Shown here in pieces: positions 27,674-34,415 of a DNA stretch of 38,437 bases (the stretch's first letter is position 1; the number at the start of each line of letters is the position of its first letter). The notes below the pieces were generated by a model, which saw only the letters and a list, made by a program, of their open reading frames with translations, ran no database searches and was not told where the DNA came from. Location: positions 1-38,437 of the forward strand of contig JAJYLP010000029.1 in assembly GCA_021787615.1 (NCBI GenBank). Direction: 5' to 3'. Origin of the DNA: Pseudomonadota bacterium. Its GTDB lineage: Bacteria; Pseudomonadota; Gammaproteobacteria; Steroidobacterales; Steroidobacteraceae. Position numbers and translations under genes: made by a program.

Positions 27674-28366
27674 TCAGCGGCTCGCCACGAGGGACGGCAG
27701 CGGGTCGGGCGAACCACCGGTGATCTGACCGCTCGTCAGCGTGATCTCACGGCCGCCGAATTCGCGCACGATGTGCAGGTCGTGCGTCGCCACCAGCACC
27801 GTCACGCCGACCTCGCTGAATCGCTTGAACAACCTCATCACCTCCAGCGACAGATCCGGATCGAGATTGCCCGTGGGCTCATCGGCCACGATCAGCGGCG
27901 GCTTGCCGACGATCGCCCGGGCAATGCCTACGCGCTGCTGCTCACCCACCGACAGCTCCATCGGCAGCAGCCGCTCCTTGCCGAGCAGCCCCACCTGATC
28001 GAGCGCCGCGCGCACCCGCTTGTCGATCTCCTTCAGCGGCGTGCCGGCCACCACCAGCGGCAGCGCGACGTTGTCGAACACCGGGCGGTCGGCGAGCAGC
28101 TTGTGATCCTGAAAGACCACGCCGATGTGCCGGCGGAACGCCGGGATGTGCCGCGCCTTCAGCGCCCCGGTGCTGCGGCCGTTGACGGTCACGCTGCCGC
28201 GGGTCGGGCGCTCGAGCAGCGCGATCAGCTTCAGCAACGTGCTCTTGCCGGCGCCCGAGCGGCCGGTGAGGAACACCAGCTCGCCGCGATCGACGAAGAA
28301 ACTGACGTTGGTGAGGGCTTCGCGCCCGTTGGGGTAACGCTTGCTGACGCGCTCGAGCTGTATCAT
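27674..28366 (-). CDS. ftsE: Cell division ATP-binding protein FtsE
   Basis: The 230-residue ATPase subunit of the FtsEX complex. It has Walker A (GRSGAGKST, 35-43), the ABC signature (LSVGEQQRVGIARA, about 139-152) and Walker B (LIVADEPTGNLD). The start is ATG at 28364-28366, overlapping the ftsY stop by 4 bases (ATGA), so ftsY-ftsE-ftsX form one operon. Confidence 0.96.
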   Translation of the reverse strand: MIQLERVSKRYPNGREALTNVSFFVDRGELVFLTGRSGAGKSTLLKLIALLERPTRGSVTVNGRSTGALKARHIPAFRRHIGVVFQDHKLLADRPVFDNVALPLVVAGTPLKEIDKRVRAALDQVGLLGKERLLPMELSVGEQQRVGIARAIVGKPPLIVADEPTGNLDPDLSLEVMRLFKRFSEVGVTVLVATHDLHIVREFGGREITLTSGQITGGSPDPLPSLVASR

Positions 28367-29349
28367 GCCCGCTCCTGTCCGGCCGGCGCGTGCGAGCCTT
28401 CGACCAGCGCCGCGGCGAAGGCGTGCGCGTCGAACTCGCCGAAGTCCGCGGGCTGCTCGCCGATGCCGATGAAACGGATGGGCAGCCCCAGGCGGCGCGC
28501 GATCGCGATCACGATCCCGCCCTTGGCGGTGCCGTCGAGCTTGGTGATCGCCAGTCCCGTGACGCCGATCGCCTCGTGAAACTGCACCGCCTGCACGAGC
28601 GCGTTCTGGCCCTGGTTGGCATCGAGCACCAGCAGGACCTCGTGCGGCGCGCGGGGGTCCCCGCGCTGCAGAACGCGCTTGACCTTCTTCAGCTCCTCCA
28701 TCAGATGCGATTGGCTGTGCAGCCGGCCGGCGGTATCGCAGATCAGCACATCGGTGCGGCGCGCGCGCGCGGCCTGCAGCGCATCGAACACCACCGCGGC
28801 CGGATCGGCGCCGGCGTGCTGCGCGATGCAGCCCGCGCCGGTGCGCTCGGCCCACACCGTCAGCTGCTCGATGGCCGCGGCCCGGAAGGTGTCGCCCGCG
28901 GCGAGCATCACGCTGCGTCCCTCGCCGGTGAAGCGGCGCGCCAGCTTGCCGATGGTCGTGGTCTTGCCCGAGCCATTCACACCGACCACGAGGAGGGTGA
29001 AGGGCTTGCAATCCGGATCGATGAGCAGCGGCTGCGCGCAGGGCGCGAGAATCTCCTCCACCGCCGCGCGCAGCGCCGCGATCAGGGCCTCGACGTCGGC
29101 GAGCTCCTTGCGCGCCAGGCGCTTATTGAGGCCCGCGAGGATGAATTCCGTGGCCTCGACCCCCACGTCGGCGGTGAGCAGCCGCGCCTCGAGCTCCTCG
29201 AGCAGGTCGGCGTCGATCTTGCGGCCGCGGAACAGATTGGCCAGATCGACGGTGAGCCTGCCGCGCCCGAGCCGCTGCGTCAGGCGCCTGAGGAAGCCCT
29301 GACGCTGCGCGGGGCCGGCCGAGGCTTCTTGGGTTTCACGTCCGAACAT
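28363..29349 (-). CDS. ftsY: Signal recognition particle receptor FtsY
   Basis: The SRP GTPase receptor that delivers signal-sequence-bearing ribosomes to the membrane. The 328-residue product contains the N helix bundle (about 20-100) and the G domain: G1 GVNGSGKTT (123-131), the DTFRAAA box, G3 DTAGR (205-209) and G4 TKLD (269-272). It lacks the long acidic A domain of E. coli FtsY (about 497 residues), so membrane binding must rely on its short basic N-terminus. It is the first gene of the leftward ftsYEX operon and divergent from rsmD. Confidence 0.95.
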   Translation of the reverse strand: MFGRETQEASAGPAQRQGFLRRLTQRLGRGRLTVDLANLFRGRKIDADLLEELEARLLTADVGVEATEFILAGLNKRLARKELADVEALIAALRAAVEEILAPCAQPLLIDPDCKPFTLLVVGVNGSGKTTTIGKLARRFTGEGRSVMLAAGDTFRAAAIEQLTVWAERTGAGCIAQHAGADPAAVVFDALQAARARRTDVLICDTAGRLHSQSHLMEELKKVKRVLQRGDPRAPHEVLLVLDANQGQNALVQAVQFHEAIGVTGLAITKLDGTAKGGIVIAIARRLGLPIRFIGIGEQPADFGEFDAHAFAAALVEGSHAPAGQERA

Positions 29350-31401: not shown

Positions 31402-31959
31402 TCAGCCGGCCCGCTTGCCGGGCAGCATGCGCCGCAGCACCGAGTCGCGCCTGACGTAATGGTGCATCAGCGCCGCCGCGGCGTGCAGGCCCGCCACGAT
31501 CACCAGCAAGTCAGCCAGATCGCTGTGCAGCTCGCCGGCGGTGCGCACCACCGAGCGGGTGGCAAACGCGGGCCGCGGGAAGGTGAACCAGTCAAAGACC
31601 GAGAGGCCGTGCACCCACGCGCTCGCCGCACCGAATACCACGGTGAGGACCAGCAGAAGGTACAGGCCGTAGTGGACCGCTTTGGCCAGCAGGTTCAACC
31701 AGCCCTCATCGACCGACGGCAGGCGCCGTCCGCCGGTCGAGCGCCACGCGATGCGCACCAGCACGACGGCGCCGACGAGCAGGCCAAGCACCATGTGCAC
31801 CGAGAGGGCGGCATGGCGCGGCGCACCCTTCGTGAACTCGTCCATCAGCTGCCCGAGTGTCCACAGCACGGCCACCAGCGCGGTGGTAAGCCAGTGCAGC
31901 ATCATGCTGAAGCCGTCGTATTTCAGTTCCGTCGTCGCGGTCGATGCCGTAGTCGCCAA
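31402..31959 (-). CDS. Cytochrome b561-family membrane protein
   Basis: A 185-residue four-helix di-heme cytochrome of the bacterial b561 family (YceJ/CybB-like), which moves electrons between quinol and periplasmic acceptors. Candidate heme-ligand histidines lie in the helices: H22, H55, H96 and H145/H159/H166. Helices run about 20-38, 50-70, 95-115 and 145-168. The start is TTG at 31957-31959 with GGGGAG four bases upstream; no ATG or GTG fits. The HiPIP gene 5 kb away is the only other redox gene nearby; no direct link is shown. Confidence 0.88.
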   Translation of the reverse strand: MATTASTATTELKYDGFSMMLHWLTTALVAVLWTLGQLMDEFTKGAPRHAALSVHMVLGLLVGAVVLVRIAWRSTGGRRLPSVDEGWLNLLAKAVHYGLYLLLVLTVVFGAASAWVHGLSVFDWFTFPRPAFATRSVVRTAGELHSDLADLLVIVAGLHAAAALMHHYVRRDSVLRRMLPGKRAG

Positions 31960-32149
31960 GTCGCTCCCCTTAGGTGGCGTTGATGAACGGATGGATCGAG
32001 CCAGAAGCTCGCGGCAGGCGCAATATTGGGTTTTCCGGAAAGATTGATGAAAACCGGAACGCTTTGGGCCACGCTGGCCGACATAAATTCTGCTTAAGCT
32101 TTAGCTTAGCAGTCAATCCCCTCGCCCCGGCTGGGAACCCTGTGGGTCA

Positions 32150-32176
32150 TTAGCACTCAAAAGACCCGAGTGCTAA
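32150..32176. promoter_or_regulatory. CIRCE operator (HrcA binding site) upstream of rpoH
   Basis: TTAGCACTC (32150-32158), nine bases, GAGTGCTAA (32168-32176): this is the textbook CIRCE consensus with no mismatch. CIRCE is bound by HrcA, usually at groESL and dnaK/hrcA operons. Here it ends 29 bases before the rpoH start codon. Confidence 0.95.
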
Positions 32177-32179
32177 AAT
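32150..32179 (+). promoter_or_regulatory. Candidate rpoH promoter embedded in CIRCE
   Basis: TTAGCA (32150-32155) and TAAAAT (32174-32179) are 18 bases apart and match -35 and -10 at 4/6 and 5/6 positions. Both boxes lie in or at the edges of the CIRCE repeat, so HrcA would block polymerase directly. The leader would be about 20 bases. Confidence 0.5.
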
Positions 32180-32205
32180 TGGCTCATAGCGTTTTGGGAG
32201 CATCC

Positions 32206-33090
32206 ATGAGTACAGCGACTGCACTGATTGCCCGGCCGTGCGAGTTCGCCCTCGCCGGACCAATCGGCAGCGTCGATGCCTACGTCGACCGGGTGAGCCG
32301 CATCCTGGTCCTCGACCGCGAGGCCGAGCGCGCGCTGGCCGTGCGTTTCCGTGACGATGGCGACCTGGACGCCGCCCGCCAGCTGGTGCTGGCGCATCTG
32401 CGTTTCGTGGTCCACATCGCCCGCGGCTACCGCGGCTACGGACTGCCCTTCGGCGACCTGATCCAGGAAGGCAACGTGGGACTGATGAAGGCGGTCAAAC
32501 GATTCGACCCGGCGCTGAATGTGCGCCTGGTGTCCTTCGCCGTTCACTGGATCCGGGCGGAGATCCACGAGTACGTCCTGCGCAACTGGCGGCTGGTGAA
32601 GATCGCCACCACCAAGGCGCAGCGCAAGCTCTTCTTCAATCTGCGACGCATGAAGAAGAACCTCACCTGGCTGTCCGTAGAGGAGACGGCGGCGGTGGCC
32701 CGCGACCTCGGTGTCACGCCGGGCGAGGTAACCGAGATGGAAAAGCGCCTTGCGGCGCACGACGTCGCATTCGATCCGGCGCCGGATGCCGATGAGGAGG
32801 AAACCTACAGCCCGGCGGCGTATCTGCCGGCCCCCGATGCCGACCCCGCCGACCAGGTGGAGGGCGCCGAGTGGGAAAGCGACTCCGCAGCCCGGCTGCG
32901 CAGCGCTCTCGGCCGCCTCGATGAGCGCAGCCGCGACATTCTCGAGCGGCGCTGGATGCGCGAGGACAAGGCGACGCTGCACGAGCTCGCCGGCCAGTAC
33001 GGCGTATCTGCCGAGCGCATCCGTCAAATCGAGGTCAATGCGCTCGGCAAGCTGCGCGGCCTGATGGCGCCGGAGCCGGCTCCGGCCTGA
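32206..33090 (+). CDS. rpoH: RNA polymerase sigma-32 heat-shock factor
   Basis: Sigma factor that directs transcription of heat-shock genes. The 294-residue product has region 1.2 (start of the SVDAYVDRVSRILVLDREAE segment), region 2 (LAHLRFVVHIARGYRGYGL, GDLIQEGNVGLMKAVKRFDP), the RpoH box QRKLFFNLR (139-147, diagnostic for sigma-32) and region 4 (LHELAGQYGVSAERIRQIEV). The ATG at 32206 follows GGGAG (32196-32200); the in-frame GTG at 32170 lies inside CIRCE and is excluded. It stands alone instead of following ftsX, and CIRCE makes it a likely HrcA target. Confidence 0.96.
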   Translation: MSTATALIARPCEFALAGPIGSVDAYVDRVSRILVLDREAERALAVRFRDDGDLDAARQLVLAHLRFVVHIARGYRGYGLPFGDLIQEGNVGLMKAVKRFDPALNVRLVSFAVHWIRAEIHEYVLRNWRLVKIATTKAQRKLFFNLRRMKKNLTWLSVEETAAVARDLGVTPGEVTEMEKRLAAHDVAFDPAPDADEEETYSPAAYLPAPDADPADQVEGAEWESDSAARLRSALGRLDERSRDILERRWMREDKATLHELAGQYGVSAERIRQIEVNALGKLRGLMAPEPAPA

Positions 33091-33100
33091 GGGCCGGCTC
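33073..33100. terminator. Hairpin at the convergent rpoH/malic enzyme boundary
   Basis: GAGCCGGC (33073-33080) and GCCGGCTC (33093-33100) form an 8-bp stem with a 12-base loop spanning the rpoH stop codon, just before the convergent malic enzyme stop. No T-run follows. Confidence 0.35.
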
Positions 33101-33113
33101 GCGCCACCGGCGC

Positions 33114-34415
33114 TCAGGACGGATAGGCCGCCTGCACCGCGGCGGCCACCCGCTCGTGCACGGTCTTGTCGAGCGGATCGGGGACCAACGCATCCTCCTG
33201 CGCCAGGGAGGCGAGCTCAGCGAGCGTCTGCGCCGCCGCCATGAGCATCGCATCGGTGAACTGCGGGGCCCTGGCGGCAAGCGCCCCTTTGAACAATCCC
33301 GGAAACGCCAGGATGTTGTTGATGCCCTTGCCGTCGGCGGCGAAGGCGGCGCCGTGCTCGCGCGCCACATGCGGCTCGATCTCCGGATCAGGATTGGAGA
33401 GGGCCAGAATGACCTGCCCCGGACGGATCCACTGCGGCTGGATCAAGCCCTTCACGCCCGTGGTCGCGATCACGATGTCCGCGCGCCGCATGAGCTCCTC
33501 GAGGCTCGCCCCCTCGGCGCCGAGCGTCCTGATACGGGCGATCGCCTCGGGGTTGCGATCCGCGCCGAGCACCTGATTGACGCCGTATGCCCGCAGCAGA
33601 CGCACGATGCCCGTGCCCGCCGCGCCGAGCCCGATCTGCCCGACGGTGCTCTCGGGCAGACTTCGGCGGGCGCGCCGCGCGGCGTTGATCAGCGCCGCTA
33701 GCGCCACGACCGCGGTGCCATGCTGATCGTCGTGCAGCACCGGCTTGCGCAACCGCTCGCGCAGCCCGGCCTCAATCTCGAAGCACTCCGGGGCGGCGAA
33801 GTCCTCGAGCTGGATGGCGCCGAAGGACAGGTGGATGCCGGCGATGAGCTCGATGACTTTCGGCACGCGCGTCTCCTCGAGCAGGATGGGCACGCCCGAG
33901 AGCCCGACCAGATCGGAGAACAGCGCCGCCTTGCCTTCCATCACGGGCAGGCCCGCGAGCGGCCCGATATTGCCGAGTCCCAGAATCGCCGTGCCGTTGG
34001 TGATCACCGCCACCGTGCTGTCGATGCTGGTGTACTCGTGGGCGAGCTGGGGGTCCTGCCGGATCGCCAGGCAGACCCGCGCGACGCCCGGGGTGTACAC
34101 ATCGCGCAGGGTCTGCAGCGTGTTGATGGGCAGGCTGGCCACCATGCGGATCTTGCCGCCGCGATGGCGGTTGAATACCCGGTCGGATTTGCCGATGAAG
34201 CGGGCGTTGGGCAGCTGGTCGATGCGCGCGTAGAGGTCGTGATTGGCCTCCTCGTCCATCTCCAGGGTGATCTCCCAGAGCGTGCGGCCCTGCACGCGTC
34301 GCACAGCGGTGAGGTGCTCAATGGTCAGACCGGCGTCGGCGATCACCTGCAGCACCTTCGCGAGGCTTCCTGGCTGGTGGACGGTCTCGACGATCAGGAT
34401 CTCGGGTATCTTCAT
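33114..34415 (-). CDS. NAD(P)-dependent malic enzyme with N-terminal ACT domain
   Basis: A 433-residue malic enzyme (malate to pyruvate and CO2). An N-terminal ACT domain (about residues 1-75, starting [20 protein letters not shown]) is fused to the malic enzyme core: [10 protein letters not shown], the metal/substrate loop ([20 protein letters not shown], then [15 protein letters not shown]) and the NAD-binding [13 protein letters not shown]. The ACT domain suggests allosteric control by an amino acid or similar effector. It lacks the phosphotransacetylase tail of MaeB-type enzymes. The ATG at 34413-34415 starts the ACT fold cleanly. A TATAGT at 34452-34457 (minus strand) is a possible -10 box. 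Confidence 0.93.

Follow-up and report, generated by a model that had tools for sequence, protein, structure and literature searches.

The classical regulon of the repressor HrcA and its operator CIRCE is that of Bacillus subtilis, in which groESL is a target and titration of the chaperonin is the known signal for HrcA. The heat-shock response is taught from Escherichia coli, where the output of rpoH (sigma-32) depends on translation, stability and a sigma-E promoter. To our knowledge E. coli has no hrcA, and it was not among the control genomes with an HrcA family match in the present analysis. Promoters recognised by RpoE follow a consensus of a GGAACTT-type -35 element, about 16 nt and a TCNNA-type -10 element.

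The locus described here lies in a stretch of DNA of 38,437 nucleotides, analysed as a whole and referred to as the window. It shares the operator consensus, the regulator family and the groESL target with B. subtilis, but differs in that the perfect site stands at a sigma-factor gene, the left arm of the groESL operator is degenerate and conserved, and hrcA-grpE has no CIRCE. A likeness is also found in Geobacter sulfurreducens, for which a CIRCE upstream of rpoH has been predicted at -51 (Rodionov et al. 2004, PMC545781), and the link between CIRCE and rpoH is therefore not itself new. An exact CIRCE precedes rpoH in both (-51 there, -56 here, from the start codon) and groESL is also a target in both. 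In G. sulfurreducens, however, CIRCE is also placed at hrcA-grpE-dnaKJ, where the genome of the window has none, and the accessible part of that account (PMC545781) mentions no overlap with a sigma-E promoter of the kind predicted in the window.

Methods

The class sample comprised 140 genomes, representing 139 families and each with a completeness of at least 90%; 105 of them carry hrcA. RpoH was identified at E <= 1e-60 in 130 of the 140 genomes (129 families), and CIRCE was searched for over 500 bp ahead of each rpoH gene, or 272 bp at one locus. The background for the GAAC counts was obtained from shuffled 40-nt segments of the 89 CIRCE-bearing upstream regions. At the family level, 20 of 21 groESL candidates have groES and were kept (L004, L115-L131, L133, L134), while L132, which lacks it, was left out.

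Results and discussion

An exact CIRCE before rpoH

The window carries an exact 9-N9-9 palindrome, TTAGCACTC-AAAAGACCC-GAGTGCTAA, which agrees with the operator of the HrcA/CIRCE regulon (TTAGCACTC-N9-GAGTGCTAA) without mismatch and is the only match in the window at up to three mismatches. A chance palindrome was ruled out, as no match was obtained in 100 dinucleotide shuffles or, at up to three mismatches, in 1300 Markov-simulated upstream regions (four at up to four mismatches). The gene that follows scores well above the cut-off of the RpoH equivalog (Table 1) and its translation contains QRKLFFNLR, which we take to be the RpoH box. Thus, the original prediction of an exact repeat directly upstream of a sigma-32 gene with a clear RpoH box is borne out. 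The likely start of rpoH is the ATG at 32206, 29 bp past the CIRCE; the mechanically called start of the ORF, a GTG at 32170, falls inside it. The nearest named relatives of this RpoH come from metagenome-assembled genomes labelled Gammaproteobacteria or Steroidobacteraceae.

Table 1. Positions in the window of rpoH and of the elements in front of it
Feature	Position	Strand	Evidence
Sigma-E-type -35, GGAACCC	32134..32140	+	GAAC at -15/-16 from CIRCE in 26/28 family and 57/89 class sites
CIRCE operator, exact 9-N9-9 palindrome	32150..32176	+	No mismatch; none in 100 shuffles; conserved upstream of rpoH in relatives
Sigma-E-type -10, TCAAA	32157..32161	+	16 nt after the -35 heptamer
Sigma-70 extended -10, TGCTAAAAT	32171..32179	+	Mostly CIRCE right arm
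Shine-Dalgarno-like GGGAG	32196..32200	+	Read directly
rpoH (sigma-32), 294 aa	32206..33090	+	TIGR02392, 392.3 bits against a cut-off of 323.1

Searches for hrcA elsewhere in the genome and for a CIRCE at groESL or dnaK had been proposed as checks, and both were positive. A single hrcA was identified in the genome (3.73 Mb, 176 contigs), on contig C7, with both Pfam domains above cut-off (PF01628, 213.7 bits against 22.2; PF03444, 23.9 against 21). An ORF judged GrpE-like by eye lies immediately downstream of it, and the genome-wide scan revealed no CIRCE at hrcA-grpE at three mismatches or fewer. The only additional CIRCE in the genome at that threshold (contig C35, 9957-9983; L004) has two mismatches and precedes the groESL operon; counted from its first base on the groES strand, it lies 80 bp before the groES start. 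A second groEL (contig C34, 19498-21003; L005) has no CIRCE, and no groES occurs in the 900 bases around its start.

The genome also encodes RpoE (TIGR02939, 293.8 bits against a cut-off of 236.15), and the ORF adjoining it behind matches RseA_N (49.5 bits), giving a pair of rpoE and anti-sigma genes. Inspection by eye of the region ahead of rpoE shows TGAACTT-N16-TCTAT, which departs from TCNNA; a pattern scan of part of this upstream region for a sigma-E promoter gave no match.

Candidate promoter elements sharing bases with the operator

The original prediction had placed both the -35 and the -10 elements of rpoH within the repeat. The -10 stands, the extended -10 element TGCTAAAAT being formed mostly by the right arm, but the -35 candidate in the repeat, TTAGCA (32150-32155), is poor (9 of 12 positions matching across the two hexamers) and a better one, of sigma-E type, is situated outside. 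Together with TCAAA it forms a sigma-E promoter pattern, GGAACCC-N16-TCAAA, that was absent from the earlier account and shares bases with the operator, TCAAA consisting of the last two bases of the left arm and the first three of the spacer.

The same overlap was observed in much of the class sample. When the 89 CIRCE-bearing upstream regions were aligned on the repeat, GAAC was found at -15 in 49 and at -16 in eight; within the 13-nt interval from -22 to -10 it occurs in 61 of the 89, against a mean of 3.3 and a maximum of 10 in the shuffled segments. TCNNA follows the GAAC-type -35 at 16 or 17 nt, with TC at the end of the left arm and NNA in spacer bases 1-3. As TC is given by any CIRCE, the informative base is the A at spacer base 3, which is present in 53 of the 57 sites with the -35 at -15 or -16 as against 14 of the 32 without (p = 4.9e-7). 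The T at the sixth position of the extended -10, the third base past the repeat, is found in 78 of the 89. In the family, the rpoH sites have GAAC at -15/-16 in 26 of 28, the spacer A in 25 of 28 and the T in all 28. The T is found in none of the 20 family groESL sites and the spacer A in five, so the promoter-like bases are a property of the rpoH site rather than of CIRCEs in general.

Not all sites conform. Among the 32 class sites without GAAC at -15/-16, two have it one base nearer and nine carry a sigma-E-like promoter whose end falls 2-15 nt short of the CIRCE, without overlap; in 21 of the 89 genomes the motifs used detect no such promoter at the CIRCE or beside it. The nine sites, the 21 genomes and the -35 of the window itself, which is GGAACCC and not the best GGAACTT, agree with an alternative in which HrcA gates only the sigma-70 promoter, the sigma-E-like elements being fortuitous here or the sigma-E polymerase escaping the block, so that rpoH has two independent inputs. 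We consider this unlikely, as the offset of GAAC is fixed and matched by the spacer A, and the shared bases would leave little room for independent access of polymerase and repressor.

Conservation in the family and a distinct groESL operator

CIRCE was detected at up to two mismatches in 147 of 150 family genomes, typically twice per genome. Among the family CIRCE loci listed, 28 of 30 lie upstream of rpoH, as predicted for close relatives, with rpoH starting 47-100 bp past the first base of the repeat. The remaining two are a groESL site (L006, the same place as L127) and a site at neither rpoH nor groESL (L019).

The left arm is TTAGCACTC in all 28 family rpoH sites, and TTAGCAGCC in 19 of the 20 groESL sites, in which the right arm is perfect. 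Nearly all groESL CIRCEs are immediately preceded by a TTGAA-type element with CTAT-like bases after it (TTGAA in 19 of 20, by eye). Since the same degenerate left arm is kept, it looks selected, which suggests a deliberately weaker operator at groESL. The greater closeness of the rpoH site to consensus, and the general absence of CIRCE where hrcA is absent, make it highly improbable that the rpoH operator is a relic, with HrcA controlling mainly groESL and RpoH levels governed, as they are in E. coli, by translation and proteolysis, even though the RpoH box is retained.

Conservation in the class and phylum

At up to two mismatches, a CIRCE precedes rpoH in 85 of the 98 class genomes with hrcA and in four of the 32 without it; at up to three the counts are 90 and five, with the same result when G311 is omitted. 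Thus, 13 hrcA-bearing genomes lack the operator at the stricter threshold and eight at the looser one. The median position is -54, and the reversed pattern gave no match in the class rpoH upstream regions. The operator is therefore shared by relatives and goes together with hrcA, although these counts are not phylogenetically independent. The recurrence in both family and class rules out a peculiarity of the window genome alone, and extends the predicted conservation to more distant relatives. It also removes the notion that CIRCE at rpoH is an unusual arrangement: among the sampled gammaproteobacterial genomes with hrcA it is the usual state, and it had been predicted earlier in G. sulfurreducens.

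For 50 of 80 RpoH relatives, 31 have both hrcA and CIRCE, 17 neither, one hrcA only (L082) and one CIRCE only (L037). On a tree built from RpoH of 79 relatives, the state without CIRCE takes at least six changes, two of them forced by starred branches. The tree offers three well-supported independent pairs differing in hrcA, of which about two agree in CIRCE and none opposes, a result that is not significant.

In the phylum, 76 of 299 genomes matched, a count that mostly reflects CIRCE alone because the scan tolerates loss of GAAC. Among the matches listed, an intact GAAC was seen by eye only in genomes of the class of the window. Of eight places inspected with an intact or near-intact element, seven have rpoH downstream and one a ClpB-like ORF (L302, genome G260). 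The latter (contig C8, 1370-1396) is a perfect CIRCE with GAAC at -15, the ORF being named by eye, and the rpoH of the same genome (L311) has no CIRCE; the element may have switched its target from rpoH to the ClpB-like ORF.

Genomes without hrcA

Four genomes (G309, G279, G316 and G213; loci L171, L179, L248 and L249, respectively) have a CIRCE with at most one mismatch before rpoH and no PF01628 match, which may reflect an assembly gap, an hrcA gene lost recently or binding by another protein. They are the cases that would fit a palindrome bound generally by a protein other than HrcA. Such a binder is the least probable of the readings considered, in view of the exact CIRCE consensus and the strong co-occurrence with hrcA, and the four exceptions, with completeness of 97-99%, may themselves be assembly gaps.

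In three other genomes without hrcA a sigma-E-like promoter remains and the repeat is damaged: the left arm is near consensus and the right arm broken in G265, G263 has three mismatches, and the repeat is not recognisable in G201. These few cases fit a decay of the operator around a retained sigma-E promoter where hrcA is absent. Of the 27 hrcA-lacking genomes without CIRCE, 20 have no sigma-E-like motif, and four of the other seven have it only elsewhere upstream. The rpoH upstream region of E. coli K-12 (L271) has TGAACTT-N16-TCTGA, presumably the promoter P3, a sigma-E element of the same kind and spacing as that of the window; no CIRCE was found in its 260 bp, the best match having eight mismatches.

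A proposed circuit

From the sequences, gene content, conservation, spacing and co-occurrence with hrcA, we infer HrcA binding, repression, the use of both promoters and dependence on GroEL. Most likely, HrcA would shut both the housekeeping and the envelope-stress promoters of rpoH, and a single operator probably gates the two until GroEL is titrated. In this scheme rpoH would be transcribed from two closely spaced promoters, one of sigma-E type and one of sigma-70 type (Table 1). Because the operator shares bases with both -10 elements, bound HrcA would cover them, exclude both polymerases and keep rpoH low; HrcA would thereby gate the envelope-stress input as well. Unfolded protein occupying GroEL would leave HrcA no longer kept active and would release rpoH together with the HrcA-repressed groESL. 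RpoH would additionally drive groESL from a sigma-32-like promoter beside the groESL CIRCE, and newly made GroEL would re-activate HrcA, closing the loop. As groESL carries a CIRCE too, a feed-forward arrangement in which HrcA represses both the activator and the chaperonin operon is plausible.

The control of rpoH had also been described as distinct from the RNA-thermometer and proteolytic control of E. coli. A link through HrcA does not require that those controls be replaced: the RpoH box is present, and the RNA analyses neither show nor exclude control at that level. In the search for an RNA thermometer, no Rfam match was obtained across 31700-33300, and the 253-nt fold is only slightly better than shuffled sequences (z -1.30; 27 of 200 shuffles equally good). 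Overall, the original interpretation is supported in part.

The new part is the fused sigma-E promoter and HrcA operator before rpoH. No title or abstract opening was found on a gammaproteobacterial rpoH CIRCE or its sigma-E overlap; a full-text description is possible, likeliest in Permina and Gelfand 2003. We suggest tentatively, with slightly less than even confidence, that this fusion was the ancestral gammaproteobacterial rpoH promoter, in which chaperonin capacity would license the housekeeping or the envelope-stress polymerase, and that the E. coli scheme is a remnant after loss of hrcA. On this reading the family maintains a weaker operator at groESL than at rpoH, and a mild shortage of GroEL would derepress groESL, with rpoH following when the shortage deepens. 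If hrcA-bearing Gammaproteobacteria commonly place this promoter under a repressor that senses the chaperonin, the E. coli circuit would be a stripped-down version of theirs, and stress signals from the cytosol and the envelope would converge on a single element of about 45 bp.

Genomic surroundings

In E. coli, rpoH follows ftsYEX, whereas in the window the ftsY- and ftsE-like ORFs (27674-29349, named by eye) are on the minus strand, opposite to rpoH and about 3 kb from it. A sigma-70-like promoter, TTGACT-18-CAGAAT (32116-32087, minus strand), faces the opposite way to rpoH; the ORF towards which it points is cytochrome b561-like, also named by eye (31402-31959, minus strand).
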